Origin: an uncultured Allomuricauda sp.
Lineage (GTDB): Bacteria > Bacteroidota > Bacteroidia > Flavobacteriales > Flavobacteriaceae
Direction: 5' to 3'
DNA: 64,000 nt
Assembly (NCBI RefSeq): GCF_947499585.1
Contig: NZ_CANMOO010000002.1
Location: forward strand, 248,001 to 312,000
The notes under the pieces are model-generated. The model was given only the letters and a program-made list of their open reading frames with translations, was not told the origin of the DNA and searched no databases. The position numbers were made by a program, and so were the translations under genes. This document shows, one piece after another, positions 1,749 to 39,091 of this stretch. Each line of letters opens with the position of its first letter. Position 1 is the stretch's first letter.

Positions 1749-1779
1749 AAGCGGATTGTTATGCAATCCGCTTTTTTTA
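1749..1779. terminator. bidirectional rho-independent terminator
   Basis: A perfect 10-bp stem (AAGCGGATTG at 1749-1758, complement at 1764-1773) with a 5-base TTATG loop is followed by a T run to 1778. It sits between the convergent small membrane protein gene and the GH13 gene, whose TAA (read on the minus strand) lies in the T run. The A residues on the other side are too few for a strong reverse terminator, but the hairpin can serve both transcripts. Confidence 0.85.
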
Positions 1780-7034: not shown

Positions 7035-7406
7035 GTATGTTGAAGATTTAGTCTAGTTAATTTGGCTATGGAAATTACTCAATAAAGACAAGCAAGTTAT
7101 TCAAATGAATCTTTTTAACAAAAACTACCTTAAAGTTTACAAAAACTCTTATAACGAAGTTAACGTTTCCTAAAAAATAAAAATAGTATATTAGTCCATA
7201 TATTGTGAATTTCATCAATTCTTGATGAATATATTGTGATTTAAATAAATTAACTCTTTTAGTTTTGTCAACCTTTCACAATTCAAAGTTATCAACACGA
7301 AACCGTTTTCGTTTGATCTTGCACTATACTTAAATTTAGATTAACACTTTTTTTATATATGTTTAACACTTGAATTAAAATTAACTAAACTTAAAATTAA
7401 TTATTT
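7035..7406. promoter_or_regulatory. divergent regulatory region between lacI-type gene and susC
   Basis: This is the only gap over 300 bases. It holds a perfect 8-bp inverted repeat TTCATCAA/TTGATGAA at 7211-7229, flanked by near-identical ATATTGTGA(A)T copies at 7199-7210 and 7230-7240, and a LacI-like palindrome at 7297-7312. The octamer TAAATTTA at 7331-7338 resembles the Bacteroidota -7 element TAnnTTTG. The leader before susC (7339-7406) is AT-rich. No ORF with coding character was seen. Confidence 0.6.
7297..7312. promoter_or_regulatory. candidate LacI-family operator upstream of susC
   Basis: ACGAAACCGTTTTCGT is a 16-bp palindrome with central CG and one mismatched pair, the form bound by LacI/GalR repressors. 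It lies about 18 bases upstream of TAAATTTA (7331), a possible -7 element, so its right arm would cover the -33 region of the susC promoter. The nearest regulator is the LacI-type gene ending at 7034. Binding is inferred. Confidence 0.6.
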
Positions 7407-10400: not shown

Positions 10401-10412
10401 GCAAGTTTTTAA
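7407..10412 (+). CDS. susC: SusC/RagA-family TonB-linked outer-membrane transporter
   Basis: The 1001-residue product is a full-length SusC-type TonB-dependent transporter. A signal peptide ends near residue 24 (GLAKAQ), followed by a carboxypeptidase-D-like domain (GTVSDANGPLPGASV, about 27-100), the segment DELDEVVVVGYGT, a plug domain with NPLYVVDGVPL and NDIASIDILKDASATAIYGSRG, and a 22-strand barrel ending in SFGFNASF. It pairs with the SusD gene 17 bases downstream to take up oligosaccharides, most likely alpha-glucans given the divergent GH13/GH65 genes. Substrate assignment is from context only. No susE or susF follows. Confidence 0.95.
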   Translation: MKITLLKSFLLLGAFVCFGLAKAQTVSGTVSDANGPLPGASVVVKGTTNGTQTDFDGNYTINDVAADATIVFSYIGFSSQEIAVNGQTTINVVLQEDANELDEVVVVGYGTQSRRTTVGAVESVKSEEFNKGVIVNPQQLIQGKTAGVQISATNGEPGSAVNVRIRGTASVRSNNNPLYVVDGVPLNGGTTSPGTQGGSSTDNNGGGDSDIGQGSSLDPLSFLNPNDIASIDILKDASATAIYGSRGANGVVLITTKSGKSGRGVLEFSSTMSVGWIGNRIELLNRDQFLQAQNTVSGGTFVDSGANTDTYETIFKTSFTQNYNLSYGGGNENGNYRVSFGYQDQEGEVEDSTFDRLTARINASQRFFDGKLKLDTQATISNIEAQRTPISDNPNARGDLLSAAYGFAPDQSLFESDASAGGLGGFFQPSAERRNPLALLELTRSTSSTLRALISVGAQYNFTDNLSFKTSIGLDKSTSSSNSAQSRLFQSGPTLDIGRAQLNEFDLTNTTWESYFTYNKEFGDDVLNLTLGHSYQEFIKETIFLEGSQFETTNLFLMVNNIARAQNFAANSTSETDELQSFFFRSNYSLDGKFNFSGTVRIDGSSRFGGNNKYGTFGAVGASWEMSQEDWFPEFFDRFKLRAAYGVTGNQEGLGSNQFTQRERFGTVNAGGNPATTGIVAFQNDDLKWEENEQINIGVDFAILDSKITGSLEYYNRTTTDFLLQIQSAQPADQPFFFQNVDGDIVNKGVELSLNVAAVETEDFGWNFNVNVGYNDNMLENYNGPDIQAGAINGPGLTGAFAQQLSNDQPLFSFFVRDWQGLDADGNNIFGNNAVQSFIGESALPDVTLGITQNLNYKNWDLSLFFNGLFGQSIYSNDRNAFSTIGNLSQGRNVFASTLPFVGVENPFNPAEVSSRFLEDGSFLRLQNITLGHNFPLSENSIFSSLRVFATAQNVFVITDYSGQDPEVSTPRTLNNVPSLGIDLTAYPRPTTLSFGFNASF

Positions 10413-10428
10413 ATAAAAAAAATTAATA

Positions 10429-12048
10429 ATGAGAAAAGAAATTTTTAAAAATCGATTTGTACAATATTTAGGTGCGGCTACCGCCCTATTATTGGGACAA
10501 GCATGTACAGATTTGGATCCTAATTTTAACGATTCGGTTTCCATTGAAACCTCCTCTGGGGAATTCGCAGGGGTAGCAAGTGCCTCAGCAACGTTAGACG
10601 CATTGTATAGTAGTGGTGCCAGTAATGGTTTAGGTATGTTTAATGAACAGTCCCAAACAGACGTTTATGCCCTTTCGGAGGTAGCAGCAGATAATATTGC
10701 TGTGCTTACCAGAGGTGCTGACTGGAGTGATAACGGTGTATGGAGAGTATTGCATGCACACACTTGGGATCCCAATCACCTTTATGTTCTTCAATCTTGG
10801 AACAAACGTAACGCTGCCATTTTGTTGGCAACTCAATTATTGGATAGTAGATCTGGCCCGAATGCAAGTCAAACTGCACAAGCCCAGGTTATAAGGGCCT
10901 ATAACGTTTTTACCGTTTTAGATTTTTTTGGACAAGTTCCTTTTAGAGGAGTAGATGATGATTCTTCAGTGGCTCCTACTGTTCTTACAGCGTCTGAAGC
11001 ATTTGCTTTGGCTAAATCAGATTTAGATGCAGCAATTTCAAGTGGTGCTTTATCTGCACATGGACCCGATGCTCCTTTAAGAGATGATTCTAGTGGAGCA
11101 GCTTTAACAGATATAGGACAAGCTGCTGCTCTTTTTATAAGAGCTAGACTAAATCTTAATGCTGAAATTATGACTGGAACTGCAGGTGATATGAACCAAG
11201 TAATTGCAGATGTAAATGCAATCGAGGATTTAGGTTTCCAATTAGATGGAATAGGAGCGGAAGATCCAGATGGTGATGAAAGTTATTTTGATATTTGGGA
11301 TTTAGCAGGAAACGCTACCAATCAAGAAGTTATCATGATGTTTGATGGTGACGCCAGAACAAGATTGTACAATCAAACACATCCTAACCAAGGAGGTTGG
11401 AACGGTTTTGTAACATTGACTGAATCTTTTAGATTACATGGAACAAATGATCCTGCTGTTGATGCAAGAGTTGGTATTTCTGGTGAAAATACAACTGGTG
11501 TTACAACTGGCTATGTTAGAGGACAACAAATTGCTCCAGATGGCACACCGCTTACAGACAGACAGTCAAATCCACTTGTTTACGAAGATGAATTGTTGAC
11601 TTCCTTAGAAGTTAACAACGAGCGTAATGGTATTCGTATTATTAAATACCCGGTAAGAAATGCAGATGGAGGGCTTCCAGGTGATGGATTTAGAGATTAT
11701 GTTTGGGCAAGATTTACTGATGCAGCGCTAATGAGAGCAGAAGCTGGCCTTAGAGGTGGAACAGGAGCACCACTAACTCCGCTTCAAGAGGTTAATGCAA
11801 TCAGAGCAAGAGCTAACGTGGCACCTTTAGGCTCGTTATCTCTAGATGACATGCCAGATATTCTTTCAAGAGAATTAAATGGTGAAGGAGTAATGGGAGG
11901 TAGAAGAGATGTTCTTAGAAGATTTGGTTTGTATACTACGCAAACTTGGGAAATGAAAACGGTAACTGAAGGTTTCAGGGATTTATATCCTATTCCTGGT
12001 TCAGCAATCGCTACCAACCCAAATTTGGTACAAAACGACGGTTACTAG
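10429..12048 (+). CDS. susD: SusD/RagB-family surface glycan-binding lipoprotein
   Basis: A 539-residue SusD homologue that caps the SusC barrel and binds glycan at the cell surface. The leader ends LLLGQACTD with Cys26 as lipid anchor. The helical TPR-like core is followed by the C-terminal SusD block, where the segment YVWARFTDAALMRAEA and the EVNAIRARANV motif are diagnostic. The ending DLYPIPGSAI-NPNLVQN is also typical. It is translated 17 bases after susC and followed by a strong terminator, so susC-susD form a two-gene transcript. Confidence 0.94.
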   Translation: MRKEIFKNRFVQYLGAATALLLGQACTDLDPNFNDSVSIETSSGEFAGVASASATLDALYSSGASNGLGMFNEQSQTDVYALSEVAADNIAVLTRGADWSDNGVWRVLHAHTWDPNHLYVLQSWNKRNAAILLATQLLDSRSGPNASQTAQAQVIRAYNVFTVLDFFGQVPFRGVDDDSSVAPTVLTASEAFALAKSDLDAAISSGALSAHGPDAPLRDDSSGAALTDIGQAAALFIRARLNLNAEIMTGTAGDMNQVIADVNAIEDLGFQLDGIGAEDPDGDESYFDIWDLAGNATNQEVIMMFDGDARTRLYNQTHPNQGGWNGFVTLTESFRLHGTNDPAVDARVGISGENTTGVTTGYVRGQQIAPDGTPLTDRQSNPLVYEDELLTSLEVNNERNGIRIIKYPVRNADGGLPGDGFRDYVWARFTDAALMRAEAGLRGGTGAPLTPLQEVNAIRARANVAPLGSLSLDDMPDILSRELNGEGVMGGRRDVLRRFGLYTTQTWEMKTVTEGFRDLYPIPGSAIATNPNLVQNDGY

Positions 12049-12072
12049 TAGTTTATCAATATATTTAATTTT

Positions 12073-12103
12073 AAAAGAGGGCAATTATATGCCCTCTTTT
12101 TTT
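12073..12103 (+). terminator. rho-independent terminator after susD
   Basis: The stem AAAAGAGGGC (12073-12082) pairs with GCCCTCTTTT (12091-12100) across an 8-base AT-rich loop, and the T run continues to 12103. It ends the susC-susD transcript 25 bases after the stop codon. Confidence 0.9.
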
Positions 12104-12260
12104 ATTGTTCTTTTTAGTTAATATGAGCTAACCATTATGAAAATAAGTGCTAATTAATTACATTCGAATTGACATAAATATATTTGGGTTTCCTCCTAAC
12201 CGTAAGTTTTAAACGGTAAACTAATAATAATTAAAATCAATCAAACTTATTCTAAATCCG

Positions 12261-15200
12261 ATGCTAAATAGACTTCTTGGTTATTTTCTATTCCTCATCA
12301 TTTTAACCGCTATTTCTTGTTCAAAAAAGAAGACAGAAGAAAATGTTGATTCTCACAATTATCTTTTCACAGCTTTGGATAGTACCCAAACAGGAATATC
12401 ATTTATCAACACAATAGAAAACGAAGAGGATTTTAATATTTTTCTATACCGTAATTTTTATAACGGTGGTGGCGTTGCAATAGGAGACATCAATAATGAT
12501 GGCTTTCCAGATATTTATCTTACCGCCAACCGTAAAAAGAATAAGCTCTTTCTTAATAAAGGTGATTTCACCTTTGAAGATATTACAGAGTCTGCCGGTG
12601 TCTACGGAACTAAAGCTTGGTCCACCGGAGTTGTATTGGTTGATCTTAATGCAGATGGATTACTTGATATTTATGTATGTAATGCGGGTAATATTAAAGG
12701 TGATGACCAAAAAAATGAACTCTTCATCAATAACGGTGATCTCACCTTTACTGAAAAAGCAGAAGAATATAATTTAGCAGATAGCGGATTTACTACGCAT
12801 GCTGCATTTTTTGATTATGATAAAGATGGGGACCTCGATGTTTACATGCTGAATAACAGTTTCATACCAGTTGCAAGTTTAGGCTACGAAAACAAACGTG
12901 ATTTACGAGCAGAAGACTGGAACGTGGTTGAAGAGATAAAAGGTGGTGGTGATAAGCTTTTTAGAAATGATAATGGAATATTCACTAATGTAAGTGAAGA
13001 AGCTAATATCTATGGAAGCCTAGTTGGTTTTGGATTAGGGGTTACCATTGGTGATATAAATAATGATCTATACCCAGATATTTACGTTTCCAATGATTTC
13101 TTTGAGCACGATTATCTATACATCAACAATCAAGATGGAACTTTTACAGAAAGCATAAAGGACTGGGCCAATCATTTGAGTCTCTTTTCAATGGGCGCGG
13201 ATATGGCAGACATAAACAACGATGGAAAATCAGATATTTTTGTAACTGATATGTTGCCAGAAGGAGATGAGCGCCTTAAGAACACAACAACCTTCGAAAC
13301 CTTTGATACCCATCAACTTAAACTCCAAAATGATTACTACTACCAATACATGCAAAATACACTTCAGTTAAACCAAGGAAGTTCCTTCTCCGAAATCGCC
13401 AATTACAGCGGTGTTTCTGGAACCGACTGGAGTTGGGGTGCATTATTGTTTGATATGGACAATGATGGCTATCGAGACATTTATGTATGTAACGGTATTT
13501 ATCATGATTTGACCAATCAAGATTTTATTGACTTTTTTGAAGACGTTACAAGGCAACAAACGGCCGTTTATGGAAACAAAGATCAAAAAAATGAAGTAAT
13601 CAATGCAATGCCCTCTACCCCTATTCCAAATTATTCATTTAAAAACAATGGAGATTTAACATTTTCAAATTCTTCTGAAGATTGGGGATTAAACACCCCC
13701 AGTTTTTCAAACGGGGCAGCGTATGGGGATTTAGATAATGATGGAGATTTAGATATCATAGTAAATAATGTAAACCAGGAACTCTTTATATATAGAAACA
13801 ATGCTGAAAAGAACGGAAACAACTACCTTAAAATAAACTTAAAGGGAGATGTTCCCAATACCTTCGGTATAGGAAGTGTTGTTGAACTTTTTACAGATAA
13901 TGAAATCATTAGGCAGGAATTGATTCCCTCAAGAGGGTTTCAATCTTCCGTTGCTTATGAAATGACTATAGGTCTTGGTCAAAAAACACAGATTGATTCT
14001 TTAAGGGTAATCTGGCCAAATGACAAGACGCAAATTCTTAAAAGTGTTGATGTAAATACCACTCTAATTCTCAAACAAGCAGACGCTAACATTATATTTC
14101 AAAATAATTCAGAAAACAAACAACCCTTTTTAAGTGAAATTGGTTCATCAATCGCTTCACATATAGAAGACAAGCATATAGACTTTGATTATGAAGGTCT
14201 AATCTCAAAAATGCTTTCCCAAGAAGGTCCAGCAGTTGCCATAGCAGATGTTAATAACGATGGAAATGAAGATGTATTTATAGGAGGCGCAAAGGGAGAT
14301 CCCGCAAAAATTTATTTACATTCTGGAAATGGGGTACTCAAGCCGACTTATGTACAAGACGTGTTTAGAGCCGACCGCCTTTTTGAAGATACTGCTTCAA
14401 CATTCTTGGATATTGAAGGAGATGGAGATATGGATTTGGTAGTTGGTTCTGGGGGCAATATACCAGGTGATGCCAAAAATTACACAAACCGAATATATAT
14501 AAACGACGGAAAAGGAAATTTCTCAAAAAGCCCAAACACCTTAAAAAGCCTTAACACTAATGTTTCAGTTATAGCACCATATGATTTTGACGCAGATGGC
14601 GATGTTGATTTGTTTATTGGCAGCAGAAGTGTTCCGGGTATTTATGGAGTAAATCCTGAGCATTTACTTTTAGAAAATGATGGCACAGGAAATTTTTCAG
14701 ACGTAACAGAGGGTAAGGCTTTCCATTTGAAAAACGTTGGTATGCTTACAGATGCCAAATGGGCAGACATTGATGGAGATTCAAAAAAAGACCTTGTTCT
14801 AACCACTGATTGGGGGTCGCCCAAAATTTTCAAGAACAATGGAAGAAGGCTTAGTCCTCTAGCTAATTCACTGGATAGTCTACTTGGCTGGTGGAATACG
14901 GTTTATCCTAAAGACTTGGATAATGATGGAGATATTGATTTAATACTTGGTAACCAAGGAAGTAATTCAGTGTATAATGGCACAAACGAAGCTCCTTCAA
15001 AAATGTTCATCAACGATTTTGATGACAATGGTACTATTGAACAGATAGTGACAAGAAGTGTTGAAAATAGAGATGTTCCCATTTCAATGAAACGAGAGCT
15101 CACCAACCAACTCGTTTCTCTAAAGAAACAAAACCTCAAATTTTCAGATTATGCCACAAAGAGCATTGATGAACTCCTAGATTCTGACATTCTAAAAAAC

Positions 15201-15596
15201 TCCATTATCAAAGAAGTTAATACCACAGAAAGTGTAATTGCAATAAATGATGGTAATGGAAATTTTGAAATAAAACGACTCCCCAAAGAGACGCAATTCT
15301 CATGTGTTTGCGATATTAATTGTAGAGATATCAATGACGACGGCAGGATTGATATTATACTTGGAGGCAATAATTACGATTTTAAACCCCAATACAGCAG
15401 GCTTGACGCTAGCTATGGCAGTGTTTTGCTATCAAACGAAAATGGAGGTTTTGAATGGTTGCCATATGATGAATCCGGCTTTTATGTAAGAGGCGAAATC
15501 AAGCATCTTCTTCCTTTTAAAGATAAGAATGGTAAAGAGTTCCTTTTTGTAGGCATCAATAATGAAAAGCCAAAAATTTATAGCTACAATCAATAG
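12261..15596 (+). CDS. CRTAC1-like FG-GAP/VCBS repeat lipoprotein with ASPIC/UnbV domain (copy 1)
   Basis: A 1111-residue lipoprotein (Cys20 in TAISCSKKK) made of two beta-propeller-like blocks of FG-GAP/VCBS repeats. Many repeats carry calcium-loop motifs of the type DxNxDGxxDIY (for example DINNDGFPDIY, DLDNDGDLDII). An ASPIC/UnbV domain lies at about residues 525-605, with GIGSVVEL, PSRGFQSS and IDSLRVIWP. The fold is known from CRTAC1; in Bacteroidota these proteins are common near SusCD loci, but their activity is unsettled. It is expressed after the susD terminator from its own 212-bp upstream region. Two paralogues occur at 25649 and 28947. Surface location is inferred from the lipoprotein leader. 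Confidence 0.88.
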   Translation: MLNRLLGYFLFLIILTAISCSKKKTEENVDSHNYLFTALDSTQTGISFINTIENEEDFNIFLYRNFYNGGGVAIGDINNDGFPDIYLTANRKKNKLFLNKGDFTFEDITESAGVYGTKAWSTGVVLVDLNADGLLDIYVCNAGNIKGDDQKNELFINNGDLTFTEKAEEYNLADSGFTTHAAFFDYDKDGDLDVYMLNNSFIPVASLGYENKRDLRAEDWNVVEEIKGGGDKLFRNDNGIFTNVSEEANIYGSLVGFGLGVTIGDINNDLYPDIYVSNDFFEHDYLYINNQDGTFTESIKDWANHLSLFSMGADMADINNDGKSDIFVTDMLPEGDERLKNTTTFETFDTHQLKLQNDYYYQYMQNTLQLNQGSSFSEIANYSGVSGTDWSWGALLFDMDNDGYRDIYVCNGIYHDLTNQDFIDFFEDVTRQQTAVYGNKDQKNEVINAMPSTPIPNYSFKNNGDLTFSNSSEDWGLNTPSFSNGAAYGDLDNDGDLDIIVNNVNQELFIYRNNAEKNGNNYLKINLKGDVPNTFGIGSVVELFTDNEIIRQELIPSRGFQSSVAYEMTIGLGQKTQIDSLRVIWPNDKTQILKSVDVNTTLILKQADANIIFQNNSENKQPFLSEIGSSIASHIEDKHIDFDYEGLISKMLSQEGPAVAIADVNNDGNEDVFIGGAKGDPAKIYLHSGNGVLKPTYVQDVFRADRLFEDTASTFLDIEGDGDMDLVVGSGGNIPGDAKNYTNRIYINDGKGNFSKSPNTLKSLNTNVSVIAPYDFDADGDVDLFIGSRSVPGIYGVNPEHLLLENDGTGNFSDVTEGKAFHLKNVGMLTDAKWADIDGDSKKDLVLTTDWGSPKIFKNNGRRLSPLANSLDSLLGWWNTVYPKDLDNDGDIDLILGNQGSNSVYNGTNEAPSKMFINDFDDNGTIEQIVTRSVENRDVPISMKRELTNQLVSLKKQNLKFSDYATKSIDELLDSDILKNSIIKEVNTTESVIAINDGNGNFEIKRLPKETQFSCVCDINCRDINDDGRIDIILGGNNYDFKPQYSRLDASYGSVLLSNENGGFEWLPYDESGFYVRGEIKHLLPFKDKNGKEFLFVGINNEKPKIYSYNQ

Positions 15597-15614: not shown

Positions 15615-15632
15615 AATGTAAACGTTTTCATT
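15615..15632. promoter_or_regulatory. 18-bp LacI-type operator, copy 1 (YeiH promoter)
   Basis: AATGTAAACGTTTTCATT differs from the perfect palindrome at 18265-18282 at a single base and has the central CG of LacI-family sites. It starts 46 bases before the YeiH-type gene's ATG and is adjacent to the -7-like TAGTTTTG at 15641-15648. The shared site links the exporter-lacI unit with the desulfonation genes. Confidence 0.8.
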
Positions 15633-15660
15633 TTTATTTGTAGTTTTGCGTTCGTTCAGA

Positions 15661-16593
15661 ATGCTTTCAAAAACAGCTACATACATATTAGTCGCCCTCG
15701 TGCTGATCGGAACCCTACTTGGGTTTATATCTCCTGCTTTGGCCTTAGCTATAGGTATGATTTGCGGAATCTTCAAAGTAGCTGACCAAGATATCATTCA
15801 AAACAGTAAGAAGTTCCAAAAGACCTTATTGCAATTATCTGTTGTAGGTCTGGGTTTTGGAATTCATATGAAACAAGCTATAGAAGTAGGTTCAAATAGC
15901 TTTTTCATTACTTTAATTACTATTGTCTGTACATTTATTATTGCCTTTGCGCTCGGAAAAATCCTCAAGTCAGAGAGAATTACAACCATATTAGTAGCCT
16001 CAGGTACAGCTATTTGTGGAGGTAGTGCCATTGCAGCAGTCAGTCCAAGTTTAAAGGCCGATTCTTCTCAAACTTCCATTTCACTTGCTATAGTATTTTT
16101 ACTCAATGCAATAGCCTTGTTCATTTTTCCATACATAGGTCATTATTTTGAACTAAGCCAAGTTCAATTTGGGACCTGGAGTGCTATTGCCATACATGAC
16201 ACAAGTTCCGTTGTAGGTGCAGCCGAAGTTTATGGAGAAATAGCCCTAAATGTTGCCACTACCACAAAATTAGTGAGGACTTTATGGATTATTCCTTTGG
16301 TATTGATTATTTCTTTTGGCTCAAACTCTAAGGAAAAGTTCGCCTTTCCGTGGTTTATTTTTGGTTTCATCGGAGCTATGCTCATTAATTCCTACGTCCC
16401 ATCAGCAGAACTCTTCAGTGAGCATATTGTTTGGATTGCCAGAAAAGCATTGATTTTTACACTTTTCCTAATTGGCCTGCAGATTAATATCGCCCAGCTT
16501 AAAAAACTTGGCTTCAATATTTTAATTGTTGGTATTTTTACTTGGATAGTTTTAGGTGTTGTATCCTTACTTTATGTTTTAAATTACATCTAA
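15661..16593 (+). CDS. yeiH: YeiH/UPF0324-family putative sulfite/sulfate exporter
   Basis: A 310-residue polytopic inner-membrane protein with about ten hydrophobic helices. The motif SGTAICGGSAIAAVSP near residue 120 and IHDTSSVVGAA are the conserved blocks of the YeiH (Cons_hypoth698) family, annotated as putative sulfate exporters and often found in taurine and other sulfonate degradation clusters to remove sulfite. I chose ATG 15661; an in-frame TTG at 15646 would lie inside the probable promoter TAGTTTTG. Its gene is followed 54 bases later by a LacI regulator and preceded by the operator shared with the desulfonation genes, which supports sulfite export as its job. Confidence 0.88.
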   Translation: MLSKTATYILVALVLIGTLLGFISPALALAIGMICGIFKVADQDIIQNSKKFQKTLLQLSVVGLGFGIHMKQAIEVGSNSFFITLITIVCTFIIAFALGKILKSERITTILVASGTAICGGSAIAAVSPSLKADSSQTSISLAIVFLLNAIALFIFPYIGHYFELSQVQFGTWSAIAIHDTSSVVGAAEVYGEIALNVATTTKLVRTLWIIPLVLIISFGSNSKEKFAFPWFIFGFIGAMLINSYVPSAELFSEHIVWIARKALIFTLFLIGLQINIAQLKKLGFNILIVGIFTWIVLGVVSLLYVLNYI

Positions 16594-16647
16594 TCTTTTT
16601 GAACATTCTGTTGAAAAGACGATGAACAATCTTAATGGTTGATTTAT

Positions 16648-17646
16648 ATGGCCGGAATAAAAGAAATCGCCAAAATTACTGGACTATCATTGGCAACTGT
16701 TTCCAGGGTTTTCAATGAAAGCCATCTTGTATCACCCAAGACACGAGAAAAAGTGCTCAAGGCAGCCGAAGAATTGGATTACCAACCTAATATCATGGCG
16801 GCTGCACTACGCAGTGGAAAAAGTAAAATCATTGGGGTCATTGTACCCGAAGTAAACAATTTCTTTTTTAGCGGTATTATCAATGGAATAGAGAAAATTG
16901 TCAGTGATTCTGGATACAATATCATTATTTCACAGTCCCATGAATTTCAAGAAAAGGAAAATGAAGCTTTAAATTCATTTTTAAAATTAAAGGTTGAGGG
17001 TATTCTAATCTCTATCTCTAAAGAAACAACTGATTTTTCCTTAATTCAAAAAATCATCAATAGTCAAGTACCTGTTATCTTTTTTGACAGGATTCCCAAC
17101 CTTGAACAAATAAATTCGGTGACATTAGATGATTATAAAGGAGCTTTTTTTGCAACAGAACATTTAATAAACCAAGATTGCAAAAATATTATTCATATTG
17201 CCGGTGATTCCAAAGTTTCAATTTTTAAAGAAAGACGAAAAGGATTTATAGACGCTATTTCAAAAAGTGGGCATAACGCTATCAAACATTCCATTCTTGA
17301 GCTTACCACCAATGTCAAAATTGATTTAGAAATTCTTCAAAAAGCCTTTAAAACCAATCCAAATATTGACGGGATTTTTGCATTTGGTGATGAAATTGGG
17401 CTACATGCTTTAAATCTGCTCAAAACTATGGATATAGCGGTTCCGGAAAATGTTAAACTTATTGCGTTTGGAAATGCTGACTTCACTAATTTGACCGAGC
17501 CAAAAATTAGCACAATAGATCAGCAATGCTCGCAAATGGGAGAATTGGCAGCCAACTTATTACTTAGAAATCTTCAGGACAAAAAAATGGAACCAGAAAC
17601 CACCGTTTTATCTCCTAAACTAATCGTACGAGATTCCACCAAATAA
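16648..17646 (+). CDS. LacI-family regulator of the sulfonate-sugar cluster
   Basis: A 332-residue LacI/GalR repressor. Its HTH is at residues 3-23 (IKEIAKITGLSLATVSRVF), the hinge is YQPNIMAAALRSGKS, and the sugar-binding-type effector domain starts at IIGVIVP. It lies between the YeiH-type gene and the desulfonation genes. Two almost identical palindromes at 15615-15632 and 18265-18282 are its most likely targets, giving auto-control and control of both divergent operons. LacI proteins usually sense sugars or sugar phosphates, which argues for a sugar sulfonate rather than taurine or isethionate. ATG 16648 was chosen over an in-frame TTG at 16639 because the HTH follows directly. Confidence 0.93.
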   Translation: MAGIKEIAKITGLSLATVSRVFNESHLVSPKTREKVLKAAEELDYQPNIMAAALRSGKSKIIGVIVPEVNNFFFSGIINGIEKIVSDSGYNIIISQSHEFQEKENEALNSFLKLKVEGILISISKETTDFSLIQKIINSQVPVIFFDRIPNLEQINSVTLDDYKGAFFATEHLINQDCKNIIHIAGDSKVSIFKERRKGFIDAISKSGHNAIKHSILELTTNVKIDLEILQKAFKTNPNIDGIFAFGDEIGLHALNLLKTMDIAVPENVKLIAFGNADFTNLTEPKISTIDQQCSQMGELAANLLLRNLQDKKMEPETTVLSPKLIVRDSTK

Positions 17647-17664
17647 ATTGTTGGATACAGAAGT

Positions 17665-18207
17665 CTAAAATTTCAAAATCTGGGCAATCTGTTTTTGAAG
17701 GGTTTCTTCGGCCTCCTTAGTTATGGAATTATCTTCAGAATTCAATAACTTAAAAATAGAGGAAATAGGGTTTTTATTGGGGTGCACATGAATTCCTAAA
17801 TGGTTCAAAACCTCAGCCAAATGATCCATGCCTCGTAAATTCCCTGCTCTACCGGATGCTATTCCTGTAATACAAGCCTTCTTATCATCAAAGCTTGGTT
17901 TGTATTCACGAATAGACATCGCATCCAACAATAATTTTACAATACCAGGATAGCTACCATTATATTCTGGGATAAAAAACCAAAACTTAGTGGATGGTAT
18001 AAAATACGTGTCTTGAATATGTTGAATCATTTTGGGCTGGTCAGAATCCTTGTACATGTTCTCATAGACAACATTTCCTTCTAGTTCTGATAAATCCAAA
18101 AACTTTACCTCACTATCAGTTTCCAAACGAAGTTTGTTATAAGCATACCTGGCAAAATGTAAGGTTTTGTTGTTTTTTCTATTGGATCCTGAGATAATTG
18201 TAATCAT
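17665..18207 (-). CDS. NAD(P)H-dependent FMN reductase
   Basis: A 180-residue flavodoxin-like FMN_red family protein. The phosphate-binding loop ISGSNRKNNKT opens the protein, and the flavin loop PEYNGSYPGIVKLLLDAM (about residues 79-96) and ITGIASGRAGNL are typical of SsuE/ChrR-type NADPH:FMN reductases. It is transcribed divergently from the aldo/keto reductase and SsuD-type genes, with the palindrome at 18265-18282 in the shared promoter gap. The inferred job is to supply FMNH2 to the monooxygenase, as SsuE does for SsuD or SmoA for SmoC. A general quinone or azo reductase role cannot be excluded from sequence alone. Confidence 0.88.
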   Translation of the reverse strand: MITIISGSNRKNNKTLHFARYAYNKLRLETDSEVKFLDLSELEGNVVYENMYKDSDQPKMIQHIQDTYFIPSTKFWFFIPEYNGSYPGIVKLLLDAMSIREYKPSFDDKKACITGIASGRAGNLRGMDHLAEVLNHLGIHVHPNKNPISSIFKLLNSEDNSITKEAEETLQKQIAQILKF

Positions 18208-18264
18208 TTAAATGACAAAAGAGATTAAACATAACATTTATGCTGTAAAATTATGAATTTTTAT

Positions 18265-18282
18265 AATGTAAACGTTTACATT
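18265..18282. promoter_or_regulatory. 18-bp perfect palindromic LacI-type operator, copy 2
   Basis: AATGTAAACGTTTACATT is a perfect 18-bp palindrome centred on CG. It lies in the 119-bp gap between the FMN reductase gene (minus) and the aldo/keto reductase gene (plus) and covers the -33 element of the plus-strand promoter, so a bound repressor would block it. It matches the site at 15615-15632 in 17 of 18 positions. Confidence 0.88.
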
Positions 18283-18305
18283 TATCATTAATTTATTTAA
18301 ATTTG
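18275..18305 (+). promoter_or_regulatory. Bacteroidota-type promoter of the desulfonation operon
   Basis: TTTA at 18275-18278, a 19-base spacer and TAAATTTG at 18298-18305 fit the Bacteroidota consensus TTTG-N19-TAnnTTTG with one mismatch. Transcription would start near 18312, about 15 bases before the ATG at 18327, which rules out the in-frame TTG at 18303 as the start. Confidence 0.6.
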
Positions 18306-18326
18306 AGTGCTAACTCGAATCATTTA

Positions 18327-19223
18327 ATGCACATGAAACTAACAAAAGACAGCATTTCTCCATATATGATCGGCACTATGCGATTGGGAACATGGGGAAG
18401 CAATCTTTCCACATCTGAATATGAACAATTTATTGAAGGGTGTCTTGATTTAAATCTTATAGATTTTGACCATGCAGATATTTACGGCCACTATACTACG
18501 GAAGAAGATTTTGGCAATGTGCTTAAATCAAGGAAAGACCTCCGCCAAAAAATGCGGATTACCACTAAATGTGGGATAAAGCTGGTTTCAGAAAATCGTC
18601 CTGAGCACAAGATAAAATCATATGATTTAACAGCAGATCACATAGAAGCATCCGTAGAGAAATCGCTGGCAAGTTTGCAAACGGATTATATAGATGTAAT
18701 GCTGCTGCATAGACCAGATTACCTTTTTGATCCTTACGAAATTGCTGAAGCAATTTCCAAACTAAAAAAGGAGGGCAAAGTATTGGCCTTTGGGGTTTCA
18801 AATTTTTCGCCTTCGCAATTTGATTTGTTAAACTCATTGACTCCATTAGTTACCAATCAAGTTGAAATTTCACTTTTACACCGTAATGCTTTTGAAGATG
18901 GCACCTTAGATCAATGCCAGAAACTAAAAGTAATTCCGTCTGCTTGGTCTCCGTTGGGTGGAGGCTTGCTTTTTAAAGATAGTACGGACAGCAAAGTCAA
19001 GAGTATTCAAAAAACCTTGGCCATATTAGCAGAAAAATATAATGCCGCAACGGATCAAATTCTTTATGCCTGGCTTAGAAAACATCCTGCTGGTATAATT
19101 CCTGTTTTGGGAACTTCAAAAATTGAACGTATTCAAGCTGCACATAAAGCTTTGGAAATATCATTGACCCATGAAGAATGGTACATGCTCTGGGAAGCTG
19201 CCTTAGGAAGAGAAATAGATTAA
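18327..19223 (+). CDS. aldo/keto reductase (YdhF-like), candidate 6-oxo-glucose reductase
   Basis: A 298-residue NAD(P)H-dependent aldo/keto reductase, cytoplasmic TIM barrel. The catalytic tetrad is visible in FDHADIYG (Asp and Tyr), TTKCG (Lys) and LLHRPD (His), and the cofactor segment GTSKIERIQAA is near the C-terminus. Overall it resembles E. coli YdhF. In the sulfo-SMO pathway an aldo/keto reductase (SmoB) reduces the aldehyde left after desulfonation to glucose; position directly before the SsuD-type gene, 23 bases apart, suggests the same job here. ATG 18327 is chosen because the probable transcript starts near 18312; ATG 18333 is equally possible. A generic reductase role remains possible. 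Confidence 0.88.
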   Translation: MHMKLTKDSISPYMIGTMRLGTWGSNLSTSEYEQFIEGCLDLNLIDFDHADIYGHYTTEEDFGNVLKSRKDLRQKMRITTKCGIKLVSENRPEHKIKSYDLTADHIEASVEKSLASLQTDYIDVMLLHRPDYLFDPYEIAEAISKLKKEGKVLAFGVSNFSPSQFDLLNSLTPLVTNQVEISLLHRNAFEDGTLDQCQKLKVIPSAWSPLGGGLLFKDSTDSKVKSIQKTLAILAEKYNAATDQILYAWLRKHPAGIIPVLGTSKIERIQAAHKALEISLTHEEWYMLWEAALGREID

Positions 19224-19246
19224 ATAAAATAGATAAAGAAAGAGAA

Positions 19247-20404
19247 ATGGAAAATTCCAAAATAGAAATTAGGTCTCCACATTTAGAAGGAGCTGAAGTA
19301 TCATGGTTTGCCCCCATTTGTAATGGCGATGATCGTTACTTAGGTGAGCGGAGCATGGATCACAAGAGTACATTTGAAAATGCATCTGAAATATTACTAA
19401 CTGCAGATAAAAATGGATTCCGAAACATTTTATGCCCTTCTTCTTATCAGGTTGGACAGGATACATTACCCTTTGTTGCTGCAGTAGGTCCTATGACAAA
19501 GCAAATCAATTTATTGGCCGCGGTGCGTTGCGGTGAAATTCACCCCCCCATGTTGGGAAGAACGCTGGCTACTATTGATCATATTTTAAAAGGTCGATTT
19601 GTTATCAATATTATCTCTTCCCCACTACCTGGTGAAGAAATGTCTTCTGAAGACCGTTATCAACGATCAAGAGAAGTTATAGAAATTTTGAAACAAGGAT
19701 GGACCCAGGATGAGATTGACTACAAAGGTCAATTTTATAACATGAAACTTTCATCCGATCCGGTTAAACCTTATCAAAATGGAGGTCCATTACTTTATTT
19801 TGGTGGTTATTCCCCAGCTGCAGTTGACTTATGTGCCGAGCATTGTGATGTTTATCTAATGTGGCCAGAAACGGAAGGAAATCTAAGAAAGTTAATGGAA
19901 AACATGAGCGCCAAAGCCGCAAGTTATGGCCGTAAAATAGATTTTGGACTTAGAGTGCACGTTGTTGTGCGTGAAACTGAAGAAGAGGCAAGGGAGTATG
20001 CTGATAGTATTGTTTCAAAATTAGGTATAGAACAAGGAAAAGAAATGCGAGAAAGAGCCTTGGATGCAAAATCCTATGGTGTTAGCAGGCAAGCAGAAAT
20101 GCGTGAAATCGCTGAAGATGATGGTTACGTAGAACCTAATATGTGGACAGGAATAGGTAGGGGACGCTCTGGATGCGGGGCAGCACTTGTTGGAAATCCT
20201 GACCAGATTGTAGAAAAATTAAATCGTTATATGGATATGGGAATCAGGGCATTTATTTTCTCCGGATATCCACATAAAGAAGAATGTGAGCGATTTGCCA
20301 AATTGGTCCTGCCACGTCTGAAGACATTTTCTATGCCAATTGCGCAAGGAAAGGTATCCGAAGAAGAACCAATGAGTCCTCTAGGTGCCGGAACACGTAT
20401 TTAA
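19247..20404 (+). CDS. SsuD/SmoC-type FMNH2-dependent sulfonate monooxygenase
   Basis: A 385-residue LLM-class flavin-dependent monooxygenase. The C-terminal half aligns by eye with alkanesulfonate monooxygenase: RVH at 236-238 (compare SsuD Arg226/His228), NMWTGIGRGRSGCG at 298-311, ALVGNPDQIVEKL at 313-325 and FIFSGYPH at 336-343 (compare SsuD Tyr331). Such enzymes use FMNH2 and O2 to cleave a C-S bond, giving an aldehyde and sulfite. The FMN reductase, aldo/keto reductase, YeiH exporter and sulfite dehydrogenase around it all fit that chemistry. The start is ATG 19247; an upstream ATG at 19178 would run into the preceding gene. Sulfoquinovose is the favoured substrate by analogy with SmoC, but another sulfonate is possible. 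Confidence 0.88.
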   Translation: MENSKIEIRSPHLEGAEVSWFAPICNGDDRYLGERSMDHKSTFENASEILLTADKNGFRNILCPSSYQVGQDTLPFVAAVGPMTKQINLLAAVRCGEIHPPMLGRTLATIDHILKGRFVINIISSPLPGEEMSSEDRYQRSREVIEILKQGWTQDEIDYKGQFYNMKLSSDPVKPYQNGGPLLYFGGYSPAAVDLCAEHCDVYLMWPETEGNLRKLMENMSAKAASYGRKIDFGLRVHVVVRETEEEAREYADSIVSKLGIEQGKEMRERALDAKSYGVSRQAEMREIAEDDGYVEPNMWTGIGRGRSGCGAALVGNPDQIVEKLNRYMDMGIRAFIFSGYPHKEECERFAKLVLPRLKTFSMPIAQGKVSEEEPMSPLGAGTRI

Positions 20405-20553
20405 CAAGCTCTTAGGCACTGATTTTAGAAACAAAATAGTATATTACATAATTAAGAATTATTCCATAACCAACCATTAATACCAAACCAATTATGCGAA
20501 ATTGTTATTTGGAATCTTGTGCTGTGGAATTAACTCATCTAATTGCATAGTCT

Positions 20554-22098
20554 ATGATTGATTTACTAATTGTCAGTGCTTATTTTATTATCGTATTCGT
20601 TACTGCGCTTACGGGAAGGACTTCAAAAGAAGCAACAACGGAAGAATATTTTTTAAGCGGTAGAAATCTACGTTGGCATTCAATTGCTTTTTCAACTATT
20701 GCTACCAACGTTCAAGGATATCAATTCCTTGGCTTTATGGGTTCTGCCTATTTGTATGGGTTAGCTCAGGCAAATTTTGAAATCAATGCAATACAGGGCT
20801 TACTTTTAGCAGCATTCATCTTTGTTCCCATGTATTTAAGGGAAAAGATTATTACGATAACCCAGTTTATTAAAACTAGGTTGGGTAGTACGGTTGCACT
20901 ATTATATTCCGCCTCAAATATTCTCTTGTTCTCTACTATTACATTAGGAGCCGCATTATTCTGGGGTGCTTATTCGGTAGATTTAGTCTTTGGAGATTTC
21001 CTTTCTTTTATACATCAAGATAGATTGATTCGAATCACAATTCTAATTGTTTTCTTAGGGCTTTTCTCAGCTACATACACCTATTTTGGGGGGTTGGCGG
21101 CAGTGGTACGTACAGACGTTATACAATTTGGAATTCTATTGACTGGCGGTGTAGTGGTATTATTTATTGCGATATATCATATGGGTGGGTGGTCCCAGCT
21201 ATATGAAAAGACAGGCGATTTAATGCATTTACATTTACCTGCTGATCATGATACATTACCGTGGACACATATTTTTGGTGCTTTTTTATTAAATATCAAT
21301 TATTGGTGTGCAAACCAGTCAGTCGTGCAACGTTCATTGGCTGCTAAAAGTTTGAAAGATGTTCAAATTGGACTAATGGTAGGAGGACTTATGAAGTATT
21401 TTATGGCCGCCATAATCATTCTACCAGGAATTGCATTGGTCGGTATACTAGGAAAAAATGGACTGCCAGAACCAGACGCTGCTTTCCCATATTTGGTAAA
21501 CACTTATCTTCCTATAGGGATTAAAGGCCTTGTTTTGTGTGCTTTGTTTGCTTCATTAATGAGTACCGTGGATTCCACATTTAACTCGTTGGCCACTTTA
21601 TGGTCCATAGATATTTATAAGGTATATGTAAATAAAAAAGCAACGGACCAACAGGTAGTTAGGTCAGGAAAAAGAGCCATTTTATTAGCTTTTATTTCAG
21701 GTTCAATAATTGGAATTGTCCTGCTTTACTTAAAGTTTCAAGATCCTGGCGCTGCCTTTACACATACGCTCAATCAATTAAGGTACTTTATTAATTGTGG
21801 TATTGTGGTATTGATAAGTGCTGCAGCATTCCTAGCTTTTCCAAAACACAGAGTTGCGCTGTTCGGGTTTGCGGCCACAGTTCCTTTACAATTCTTCTTC
21901 TTAGAGTATTTCCCAGACATGAACTATTTTGTTAGAGCCATGTGGGTTATCATAATTGGATTTGTAATTATTTGGTTAGGATCAAGAACTGGATTTATTA
22001 AGGACAAATTGAAGCCTGAACCTGCTTCACCTATGCTGGCCAAAGCTGGTATTGGAATGGCATTGTCATTGGTTCTGCTTCATATTATTTTTCACTAA
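20554..22098 (+). CDS. sodium/solute symporter (SSS family), candidate sulfo-sugar importer
   Basis: A 514-residue SSS/SLC5-type transporter with about 13 hydrophobic helices, beginning in the first helix (IDLLIVSAYFIIVFVTALTG) followed by the family segment EEYFLSGRNLRWHSIAFS. The conserved YTYFGGLAAVVRTDVIQ and NQSVVQRSLAAKS blocks are as in SGLT-like sugar symporters. It lies 149 bases after the monooxygenase gene and 8 bases before the sulfite dehydrogenase gene, so it belongs to the sulfonate operon. The inferred job is Na+-driven import of the sugar sulfonate, in place of the ABC importer of the Agrobacterium pathway. No sequence motif fixes the substrate. Confidence 0.9.
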   Translation: MIDLLIVSAYFIIVFVTALTGRTSKEATTEEYFLSGRNLRWHSIAFSTIATNVQGYQFLGFMGSAYLYGLAQANFEINAIQGLLLAAFIFVPMYLREKIITITQFIKTRLGSTVALLYSASNILLFSTITLGAALFWGAYSVDLVFGDFLSFIHQDRLIRITILIVFLGLFSATYTYFGGLAAVVRTDVIQFGILLTGGVVVLFIAIYHMGGWSQLYEKTGDLMHLHLPADHDTLPWTHIFGAFLLNINYWCANQSVVQRSLAAKSLKDVQIGLMVGGLMKYFMAAIIILPGIALVGILGKNGLPEPDAAFPYLVNTYLPIGIKGLVLCALFASLMSTVDSTFNSLATLWSIDIYKVYVNKKATDQQVVRSGKRAILLAFISGSIIGIVLLYLKFQDPGAAFTHTLNQLRYFINCGIVVLISAAAFLAFPKHRVALFGFAATVPLQFFFLEYFPDMNYFVRAMWVIIIGFVIIWLGSRTGFIKDKLKPEPASPMLAKAGIGMALSLVLLHIIFH

Positions 22099-22106
22099 AA
22101 TAGATA

Positions 22107-23330
22107 ATGAAAAGACGTAGTTTCATTAGTAAAGGGACCTTGGGCACTTTTAGTGCTATCCTTGGAACCGATATCGTCTTTGGGAATACAATACCCTTAG
22201 GATATAAACCATTGGCGCTCCAAGACCCTGATCCTTTTAAATTATTTCAGAAGGATTCGGATATGACAGTTCTTAACAACAAACCGTGGAACATTGAAGC
22301 GAAAGCCCATCTTTTAGATGATAAAATCACACCTAATAAGTTCATGTTTATTAGGAACAATGGTCTTATTCCAGAAAACATAGATGTTAATAAATGGTCT
22401 TTGACCATTGATGGTGAATCAGTTCAAAAAAGTAAAACCTATTCCTTATCAGAATTAAAATCTAAGTTCCAGCAGTACACTTATCAACTTACCTTAGAGT
22501 GCGGTGGAAACGGGCGTAGTGAGTTCAATCCACCAGCAAAGGGCAATCAATGGACCATTGGTGCTGTATCCTGCGCCAATTGGACCGGAATTCGTCTAAG
22601 AGATGTACTGGAAGATGTTGGAATCAAAAATGATGCGGTGTACATTGGGTACCATGCCGCGGACATACATTTAAGTAGAAATCCAGAGAAAGAACCCATT
22701 TCTAGAGGCGTCCCAATTGCTAAGGCACAGCAAGATGAAACATTGTTGGCGTTTAAAATGAACGGAGAAGATATTCCATTGGCTCATGGGTATCCATTAC
22801 GATTGGTTTCAGGTGGTTGGCCTGCGTCTACTTCTGGAAAATGGGTCAATAGAATTAGCATCCGAAACAAGGAACATGATGGTGCAAAGATGACCGGCAC
22901 TTCTTATCGTGTACCATGTGAACCCGTTGCTCCGGGTGAAAAAGTGGCCGATGAGGATATGTGCATTATTGAATCTATGCCAGTAAAGTCATTGATTACT
23001 TACCCTAAGTCTGGGGCTATGATTAAAGAAGGACAATCCTTAAATATTAGAGGTCATGCCTGGGCAGGTGAATTGGAAGTTTCTAAAATGGAGTATTCTA
23101 TAGATTTTGGATCCACTTGGAATAGTTGCACAATTGAAAAACCAGTTAATCGCCTAGCATGGCAACATTTTTCAGCAAAAATCAGCGGTTTTCCTAAAAA
23201 AGGATATTACGAAGTTTGGGCAAGAGCCACAGATTCTCAAGGTACTGGACAGCCTATGCTTCTGCCCGGATGGAATCCAAAAGGATATCTAAATAATGCC
23301 TGTCATAGAATTGCAATTAAGGTAGTTTAA
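22107..23330 (+). CDS. Tat-exported molybdopterin sulfite dehydrogenase (SorA/SoxC-like)
   Basis: A 407-residue sulfite oxidase-family enzyme. The twin-arginine leader KRRSFISKG directs a folded cofactor-loaded protein to the periplasm. The Moco domain has the cysteine ligand C132 in LTLECGGNGR, then GAVSCANWTGIRLRDVL, and HGYPLRLVSGGW. The C-terminal Mo-co dimerisation domain is present (YPKSGAMIKEG to the end). The reaction is sulfite plus water to sulfate plus two electrons, which pass to the cytochrome encoded 2 bases downstream. With YeiH export, this would detoxify sulfite from desulfonation and feed respiration. A SoxC role is unlikely, as no other sox genes are seen. Confidence 0.9.
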   Translation: MKRRSFISKGTLGTFSAILGTDIVFGNTIPLGYKPLALQDPDPFKLFQKDSDMTVLNNKPWNIEAKAHLLDDKITPNKFMFIRNNGLIPENIDVNKWSLTIDGESVQKSKTYSLSELKSKFQQYTYQLTLECGGNGRSEFNPPAKGNQWTIGAVSCANWTGIRLRDVLEDVGIKNDAVYIGYHAADIHLSRNPEKEPISRGVPIAKAQQDETLLAFKMNGEDIPLAHGYPLRLVSGGWPASTSGKWVNRISIRNKEHDGAKMTGTSYRVPCEPVAPGEKVADEDMCIIESMPVKSLITYPKSGAMIKEGQSLNIRGHAWAGELEVSKMEYSIDFGSTWNSCTIEKPVNRLAWQHFSAKISGFPKKGYYEVWARATDSQGTGQPMLLPGWNPKGYLNNACHRIAIKVV

Positions 23331-23332
23331 TC

Positions 23333-23800
23333 ATGTCCTCCGAAAACGAATTTAAACAACAAGTACGTAGCCTTTACCAGAAACTCATTGCCGCTTTTGG
23401 CTTGATTGCCATTGCTGTTTTTGCTTTTATTTATGTTGCTTTAAATCCTTCCGTTCTACAAAATAAACCAGAAGAAACTGCCATAATAACCATTCCAGAA
23501 GTTGAAGGTAAGATTGAAAACGGGATTCATGTCGCCACTGGTTTTATTGATGGAACAGGACTTACAGAGGTAATCCAAAATTGCACCAATTGTCACTCAG
23601 CCAAACTGGTCACGCAAAACAGAATGACCAAAGAAGGATGGGTAGCCACTATCCGTTGGATGCAGGAAACCCAGAACTTATGGGATTTAGGAAATCAAGA
23701 GGAAGCTATAGTCAATTACCTTGCAACTAACTACGCTCCCCAGAAAAAGGGTCGTCGCGAAGTATTAACGGATATTGAATGGTATCCCTTGGAAAAATAA
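23333..23800 (+). CDS. membrane-anchored monohaem cytochrome c, partner of the sulfite dehydrogenase
   Basis: A 155-residue c-type cytochrome. One transmembrane anchor spans about residues 20-37, followed by a periplasmic domain with a single haem site CTNCH (C84, C87, H88). Met94 in NRMTKEGW or Met105 in RWMQ could be the distal ligand. The gene follows the Mo-enzyme gene with a 2-base gap, the arrangement of SorAB and SoxCD-type pairs in which the cytochrome takes electrons from the Mo centre. It is the last gene of the cluster; the next gene is convergent 13 bases away. Confidence 0.88.
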   Translation: MSSENEFKQQVRSLYQKLIAAFGLIAIAVFAFIYVALNPSVLQNKPEETAIITIPEVEGKIENGIHVATGFIDGTGLTEVIQNCTNCHSAKLVTQNRMTKEGWVATIRWMQETQNLWDLGNQEEAIVNYLATNYAPQKKGRREVLTDIEWYPLEK

Positions 23801-39037: not shown

Positions 39038-39091
39038 ATGACTGAAGTTGATTCCAAAATTTTGTATTTTGGAGAATTCAAAGTACTATAT

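Follow-up and report, generated by a model that had tools for sequence, protein, structure and literature searches.

The 64-kb stretch analysed here (the window; contig C2, 248001–312000) belongs to the genome of an uncultured Allomuricauda sp. (3.77 Mb, 99.96% complete) and carries an eight-gene block at 15646–23800 that we read as a regulated catabolic unit for removing the sulfonate group oxidatively from sulfoquinovose (SQ), the sugar component of sulfolipids in plants and algae. On sequence comparison this cassette would be a variant form, in Bacteroidota, of the sulfo-SMO (sulfo-ASMO) pathway, a reading to which we give a probability of roughly 0.7. Its genes encode, in order, a YeiH-family putative sulfite (or sulfate) exporter (15661–16593), a LacI-family regulator (16648–17646; open reading frame (ORF) listed from TTG 16639), an NAD(P)H-dependent FMN reductase as putative FMNH2 supplier (17665–18207), an aldo/keto reductase (AKR) with a putative SmoB/SquF role (18327–19223), a predicted SmoC-type FMNH2-dependent sulfoquinovose monooxygenase (19247–20404), an SGLT-like Na+/solute symporter of the SSS family proposed to import the sulfosugar (20554–22098), a SorA-like, Tat-type molybdenum sulfite oxidase/dehydrogenase with the twin-arginine motif KRRSFI (22107–23330), and a membrane-anchored c-type cytochrome (CTNCH) as its putative SorB-like partner (23333–23800). 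All are on the forward strand except the FMN reductase gene, which lies on the reverse strand, divergent from that of the AKR. A preliminary description of this DNA had named these eight contiguous genes, and an ORF check bore out their coordinates and order; the description left out the SusC, SusD and FG-GAP genes immediately upstream (7407–15596), which are part of the unit.

The monooxygenase is a predicted SmoC-type enzyme by clade membership and by conserved sulfonate-site residues. Against Protein Data Bank (PDB) chains it scores 497 bits with 7oh2 and 494 bits with 7olf, which we take to be SmoC structures, compared with 235 bits for the SsuD-type chain 7jv3 and 199 bits for Escherichia coli SsuD. 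It is 56–60% identical to five alphaproteobacterial SmoC sequences (60.4% to the Ruegeria enzyme of locus L083, 56% to the Rhizobium enzyme of L084) and 32–35% identical to two SsuD-type sequences (32.4% to E. coli SsuD). The preliminary description had proposed phylogeny and a comparison of pocket residues as checks on this gene. In a tree of 113 sequences with SsuD as outgroup, the window protein, 7oh2, 7olf and the Ruegeria and Rhizobium enzymes fall into one clade with Bacteroidota SmoC, and not with non-sulfonate luciferase-like monooxygenases (LLM). Alignment with SmoC and SsuD likewise indicates that the sulfonate site is kept: W206, R236, H238, R307 and Y341 correspond to W196, R226, H228, R297 and Y331 of SsuD, presumably its sulfonate-site residues, and are conserved in all 102 sequences of a Bacteroidota set that also takes in a few Chloroflexi and Calditrichia. 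Two plasmid-borne SmoC relatives, from the Emticicia plasmid pEMTOL05 (L085) and a Spirosoma plasmid (L086), share 53–54% identity and lie outside the main clade.

Gene context points to a sulfosugar as the substrate. The Ruegeria cluster combines a SmoC-type LLM, an AKR, a flavin reductase and a TRAP transporter with a GH188-type Gfo/Idh protein that scores 369 bits with 8qc2 and 8qc3, identified in the accessible text of PMC10755693 as SqgA of family GH188. In the Chloroflexi locus L071, an AKR gene and a GH188-like gene lie directly upstream of a SmoC gene whose product is 70% identical to that of the window (L071:1120–4565); in L059, likewise a Chloroflexi contig, a GH188-like gene lies directly downstream of a SmoC gene at 69% identity (L059:9010–11418). 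The L071 GH188-type protein scores 226 bits with 8qc2. In it and in the L059 GH188-like protein, the SqgA motifs EHR..FL.K and EKCCH are intact; according to the same source, these motifs include the Arg, Leu and Lys that contact the sulfonate and, in the active site, Glu and His (PMC10755693). These pairs suggest that sulfo-SMO occurs in Chloroflexota too. Moreover, the nearest solved relatives of the window symporter are the sodium/glucose cotransporter chains 2xq2 and 3dh4, followed by SGLT1 and SGLT2. Together with the SmoC clade and the site residues, this likeness supports the earlier proposal of a sulfo-SMO-like locus with an SSS importer.

A recurrent operator links the genes of the cassette. 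Two like sites lie in its promoter regions: O1 (TGTAAACGTTTTCA, 15617–15630, one mismatch) upstream of YeiH, in the same place in eight other YeiH loci, and O2 (TGTAAACGTTTACA, a perfect palindrome, 18267–18280) in the divergent FMN reductase/AKR promoter region, adjoining the FMN reductase gene. Sequence and comparison also point to a -7 box in the YeiH promoter (TAGTTTTG, 15641–15648, forward strand) and another in the AKR–SmoC promoter (TAAATTTG, 18298–18305, forward strand), which we take to be of the Bacteroidota type with the consensus TAnnTTTG. Because the listed TTG starts of YeiH (15646) and the AKR (18303) fall within these conserved boxes, the two proteins probably start at ATG 15661 and at ATG 18327 or 18333. 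We compared nine SmoC-positive and six SmoC-negative loci of the genus at the corresponding site. All nine positives carry the LacI gene and both operators, with at most one mismatch each; the six negative stretches, two of which stop short of the cassette site, have no operator at up to two mismatches, and one of them holds a sequence fitting a more permissive LacI-type pattern. Across 87 loci (1.26 Mb) picked for carrying SmoC, the scan gave 25 sites carrying no more than one mismatch, each of them upstream of a cassette-type gene by 108 bp or less (AKR 11, YeiH 8, SmoC 3, and SorA, LacI and SusC one each). Three mononucleotide shuffles of the same loci yielded none. The operator is kept while flanking bases diverge, and most copies are followed by a box resembling TAnnTTTG. 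The cassette LacI is predicted to bind sites of this type, and TGTAAACGTTTACA could serve as a marker of the regulon. At L010, a sulfite dehydrogenase gene more than 8 kb from SmoC has an operator of its own. This unlinked gene is the strongest argument for counting sulfite oxidation as part of the system, and it backs the earlier suggestion that the locus adds its own sulfite-to-sulfate step. Scans for sigma-70-type promoters (38 versus 29.9, standard deviation 6.7) and for terminators (4 versus 6.8) gave results at chance, and neither was used.

SmoC, usually with a symporter, is a patchy trait in Bacteroidota. With the host genome included, it occurs in 7 of 395 genomes sampled from the phylum, 22 of 397 from the family and 13 of 71 from the genus. 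A genome scan returned at least 587 related stretches; the locus counts given here rest on the best 80, mostly from Flavobacteriaceae and Saprospiraceae but also from Cyclobacteriaceae, Chloroflexi and Calditrichia. Within 6 kb of SmoC, these loci hold genes for an SSS1-like symporter (58), AKR (38), LacI (12), FMN reductase (10), YeiH (8) and SorA (5); in the 38 loci whose flanks extend 6 kb in each direction, the corresponding counts are 31, 16, 9, 7, 6 and 4. In 47 of the 69 loci able to show the order, the first ORF after SmoC is the SSS1 gene. Recurrence of the block in the same order in relatives places it beyond chance.

Within the genus, the eight genes behave as one accessory unit. 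The cassette is present in 9/9 SmoC-positive loci and in none of the four SmoC-negative loci whose stretch covers the site; the two other negative stretches end in SusC, and SmoC is absent from both genomes. All 15 loci have GH13–GH65–LacI2 genes on one side. Beyond these, the four negative stretches that pass the site continue with SusC, SusD, an SSS-type gene and FG-GAP genes, whereas positive loci run SusC–SusD–FG-GAP, the eight cassette genes and more FG-GAP genes. The upstream genes of the window, all on the forward strand, encode cassette-linked types of SusC (7407–10412), SusD (10429–12048; also matched in Pfam) and an FG-GAP/ASPIC repeat protein (12261–15596). Median identities among the ten positives (window included), versus positive–negative pairs, are 74/50% for SusC, 61/42% for SusD and 81/58% for the first FG-GAP protein; for the flanking genes they are 83/80% (GH13), 80/79% (GH65) and 89/87% (LacI2). 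The cassette-linked SusC (E ≤1e-250, at least 74% identity) occurs in exactly the same 13 of 71 genomes as SmoC and in none of the other 58 (Fisher p = 2e-14, kinship ignored). Trees of neighbouring genes reject the SmoC-positive genomes as one clade (approximately unbiased (AU) test, p = 0.0008 for a first gene set and 0.0002 for a second); both sets are linked to the locus rather than drawn from a whole-genome tree, the SmoC label is clustered, and the second set lost G408, one of nine SmoC-negative genomes. Vertical inheritance of the cassette was rejected on these two locus-linked sets, and the simplest reading is that the whole block from SusC to the cytochrome has been exchanged between species. 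The GH65/GH13 pair next door (1777–5948) was rejected as part of the cassette since GH65 is a core neighbour, present in 69 of 71 genus genomes with or without SmoC. A role in xylose use was also set aside: genes for XylB-like and XylA proteins adjoin the cassette of L004, and L006 has ORFs of the same sizes (the first an FGGY kinase), but they are absent from the nine same-genus SmoC-positive loci.

Pfam models place the products of the cassette genes in PF03601 (YeiH), LacI, PF03358 (FMN_red), PF00248 (AKR), PF00296 (luciferase-like), PF00474 (SSF) and PF00174+PF03404 (Mo sulfite oxidase); the CxxCH protein matches a haem-binding model below its cut-off. NCBIfam matches add to the assignment of the FMN reductase, symporter, sulfite oxidase and cytochrome, and synteny to that of the symporter. 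Because the NCBIfam equivalog cut-offs are missed for YeiH (127.5 of 232.6 bits), SorA (227 of 600), SorB (28.3 of 93) and SsuD (TIGR03565; 270 of 518), these names are used at family level only. The SorA-like protein belongs by its two Pfam domains to the sulfite oxidase superfamily, and its best PDB match is the sulfite oxidase chain 2a9d, presumably from chicken.

The two reductases resemble their counterparts in known clusters less closely. The window AKR scores 240 bits with E. coli YdhF and 221 bits with 7bby/7bbz, which we take to be SmoB structures (phmmer E ∼1e-64 over residues 18–305 of 306), and is 41% identical to the Ruegeria AKR. In a tree of 62 sequences, 42 AKRs from SmoC loci, that of the window among them, group in a single clade (SH-aLRT 93), separate from generic AKRs. 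All come from Bacteroidota except one labelled only ‘bacterium’; the AKR of Chloroflexi L071 falls elsewhere. The Ruegeria flavin reductase belongs to PF01613, and the window FMN reductase has weak matches to SsuE/MsuE. The preliminary description had likened the window genes to SmoA and SmoB: an FMN reductase and an AKR are indeed present, but the AKR stands apart from alphaproteobacterial SmoB and the FMN reductase belongs to a different Pfam family from that of Ruegeria. Sulfo-SMO may use SsuE-type or unlinked flavin reductases, according to the available portion of a review (PMC9594981). The AKR and FMN reductase may each have been recruited independently to a SmoC that was itself inherited or transferred. 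Co-occurrence of AKR with SmoC was rejected as evidence. Among the 397 Flavobacteriaceae genomes (apparently one sample for the AKR and SmoC counts, host genome included), an AKR at E ≤1e-50 is found in 22 of 22 SmoC-positive and 174 of 375 SmoC-negative genomes, and the comparison was dropped because 10 unlinked AKRs of SmoC-positive genomes group with generic AKRs, five from SmoC-negative genomes. Locus L005 has YeiH, LacI, FMN reductase, SmoC and SSS1 genes and no AKR match between FMN reductase and SmoC; this gap could be gene loss or an assembly error.

We infer the substrate, transport direction, enzyme activities, role of YeiH, binding of LacI to its sites and identity of the inducer, and propose the following scheme. 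SQ or a small SQ glycoside would be taken up, possibly via the cassette-linked SusC/SusD pair, and would cross the inner membrane through the SGLT-like Na+ symporter. The FMN reductase would make FMNH2, with which, and with O2, SmoC would cut the C–S bond to give sulfite and 6-dehydroglucose; the AKR would reduce the latter to glucose. Sulfite would leave for the periplasm via YeiH and be oxidised there to sulfate by the Tat-type Mo enzyme, with electrons passing to the c-type cytochrome. LacI would repress both cassette promoters from the two like operators until SQ or a derived sugar appears.

Several observations weigh against this scheme. A genome-wide search found no GH31-type or GH188-type sulfoquinovosidase in the host genome, in agreement with the preliminary description, which had seen none. 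Its 799-residue GH31 protein scores 200 bits on the YihQ model NF007746 (cut-off 553) and 488 bits on MalA (cut-off 800). A second PF01055 hit scores slightly better as Melibiase (35.1 versus 34.1 bits) and has no NF007746 match at E ≤0.001. Four GH188-like hits are partial, at 23–29% identity, with no SqgA motifs in their Gfo/Idh regions; the same motifs show in 4/4 control loci and are present in the GH188-type gene of L084. The clade joining alphaproteobacterial SmoC to the window group has an SH-aLRT of 85, with long branches flagged. Of 63 columns common to the five alphaproteobacterial SmoC sequences and one Novosphingobium SquD-type sequence, and absent from the two SsuD sequences, the window protein shares 45 and differs at 18, of which 12 lie within residues 23–54; specificity may therefore be shifted. 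An AKR gene is absent within 6 kb of SmoC in 42 of the 80 loci (many on short contigs) and in 22 of the 38 with full flanks, and alphaproteobacterial SmoB lies outside the group that holds the SmoC-locus AKR clade, YdhF and generic AKRs. The operator count within the window is itself only mildly unusual (at up to two mismatches, 0.36 are expected on average and 5 of 100 shuffles reach 2); the case for these putative operators is carried by conservation rather than by that count. Lastly, the operator scan found no cassette operator at the cassette-linked SusC of the window.

The same chemistry might serve another sulfonate, either another sugar sulfonate or a C3 compound such as 2,3-dihydroxypropanesulfonate, which would give glyceraldehyde and then glycerol. 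The 42 loci that lack a nearby AKR would suit such a substrate, as would the divergent N-terminal stretch of SmoC, the amino-acid permease beside the SmoC relative on the Spirosoma plasmid, and the glycerol genes near SmoC: of the 80 loci, 9 have GlpD and 3 have GlpK (both in L039, L068 and L075; GlpD in L028, L042, L064, L078, L079 and L080, loci of Saprospiraceae and Arcticimaribacter types). However, GlpD and GlpK would fit glycerol release from SQ-glycerol too, not a C3 sulfonate alone. In the Novosphingobium cluster they accompany LacI, an AKR, a SquD-type enzyme and a GH31 sulfoquinovosidase-type gene, whose product scores 870 bits on NF007746 (cut-off 553). The SGLT-like symporter, the LacI regulator and the GH188-type genes adjoining SmoC at 69–70% identity in L059 and L071 also speak for a sulfosugar, and we regard a different sulfonate as unlikely. 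It is highly improbable that the cassette is an ordinary SsuD-type system scavenging sulfur from mixed alkanesulfonates. Membership of the SsuD/LLM family would allow this, but the TIGR03565 score is well below the cut-off, identity to E. coli SsuD is 32.4% against 56–60% for alphaproteobacterial SmoC, the regulator and symporter are of sugar type, and the sulfite oxidase in the cassette implies that sulfite is apparently sent to oxidation.

A further possibility concerns the order of steps. SmoC and the AKR might act on intact SQ-glycerol to give glucosylglycerol, which an ordinary alpha-glucosidase would then split, so that no sulfoquinovosidase would be needed. Besides the failure to find such an enzyme in the host genome and the SusC type that travels with the cassette, this order draws on a set of GH13 genes. 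In L010 and L016, a GH13 alpha-glucosidase gene follows the FMN reductase gene on the same strand, after gaps of 3 bp and 9 bp, behind the cassette operator, and the two genes probably share an operator-controlled transcript. Related GH13 genes near SmoC in L017, L049 and L081 form one clade with these (support 92/98); a sixth, in L113, is more distant, on a long branch. Another GH13 gene of the genus, lying next to xerD or close by and scoring in the class 605–626 bits, occurs in 13/13 SmoC-positive and 0/58 SmoC-negative genomes; the host copy is at L159:3902–5590 (contig C1, about 1619901–1621589). Linked and unlinked GH13 proteins alike keep the standard residues of 1uok, which we take to be those of a glucose −1 site. 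Such ordinary residues suit a GH13 enzyme that would cut a glucoside after desulfonation better than one that would cut SQ. On these grounds, and because the unlinked type lacks the cassette operator, GH13 was rejected as the missing sulfoquinovosidase and retained as no more than a lead. The xerD-side genes, however, lie outside the clade of SmoC-linked GH13; seven of the 13 were read as sequence (85–95% identical to the host gene), and the other six were classed by score only. At the same threshold 22 of the 58 SmoC-negative genomes yield some other GH13 hit, with a higher score in four of them and a lower one in the remainder. The available portions of two reviews have SmoC/SquD act on SQ itself (PMC9594981; PMC12890257). 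We consider the reversed order quite unlikely. Its Bacteroidota form, in which SQ-glycerol would be imported whole by SusC/SusD and the SGLT-like symporter, desulfonated to glucosylglycerol and cut by GH13, with the glycerol passing to GlpK/GlpD, seems rather unlikely. If true, it would explain the failure to find a sulfoquinovosidase in the host genome, the presence near SmoC at some loci of GH13 enzymes with ordinary glucose sites, and the differing N-terminal stretch of SmoC.

Desulfonation of SQ is known core chemistry, and the Bacteroidota cassette appears to be a new version of the sulfo-SMO pathway. Like the clusters of Agrobacterium and Novosphingobium (SmoA–SmoB–SmoC; SquD–SquF), it combines a SmoC-type enzyme, a PF00248 AKR and a flavin reductase, and it shares a LacI regulator with Novosphingobium. 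It differs in its phylum, in its SSS symporter (known clusters use TRAP transporters or, according to the accessible part of a review, ABC transporters; PMC9594981), in its FMN reductase family and AKR clade, in having its own sulfite dehydrogenase and a linked SusC/SusD type, and in lacking a known sulfoquinovosidase. The Roseobacter and Rhizobium smo clusters (L083, L084) have similar SmoC enzymes, and a YeiH-family gene lies near that of L084; unlike the window, they have a GntR regulator, a TRAP importer and a GH188-type gene. The sulfite-handling pair resembles SorAB/SorT in its Mo and dimerisation domains and adjoining c-type cytochrome gene, although its proteins are far below the SorA, SorT and SorB equivalog cut-offs. 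With SsuD/SsuE the window enzyme shares its family and the W/R/H/R/Y set; apart from low identity, it differs in its N-terminal stretch, with V aligned with C54.

In the available portions of two reviews, sulfo-SMO is assigned chiefly to alpha- and betaproteobacteria (PMC9594981; PMC12890257), to which the accessible text of a 2026 survey (PMC13372026) adds Actinomycetota and Spirochaetota. That survey called sulfo-SMO where BLASTp hits to SmoB and SmoC (identity of at least 30%, E ≤1e-50, 70% coverage) fell within 10 ORFs. The cassette shows this pattern by proxies in place of the survey's reference set: the AKR gene adjoins SmoC, and the AKR was matched to 7bby/7bbz and the Ruegeria AKR. No report of sulfo-SMO in Bacteroidota appeared in the literature searched, which included the accessible text of PMC10504371 and PMC11378808 and few subscription papers; figure 7 or the supplementary tables of PMC13372026 may hold some. 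A regulated version with its own sulfite oxidase would make these bacteria candidates for turning the sulfolipid sugar into sulfate within one cell. It also raises the question of what opens SQ glycosides in the absence of a known sulfoquinovosidase.

Three further observations concern neighbouring and related DNA. In the gap between LacI2 and SusC (7035–7406), inspection by eye showed a LacI-type palindrome that differs from the cassette operator, CGAAACCGTTTTCG; LacI2, rather than the cassette LacI, may control SusC/SusD of the window along with the GH65/GH13 pair. The SmoC relative on the Spirosoma plasmid has as neighbours SusC/SusD, an amidohydrolase, the amino-acid permease, a cytochrome c and a gene annotated soxC, and is perhaps for another sulfonate. 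Elsewhere in the window (39026–40291), a 421-residue protein combines an HD domain with a PycTM (Pycsar effector) domain and is possibly a phage-defence effector.

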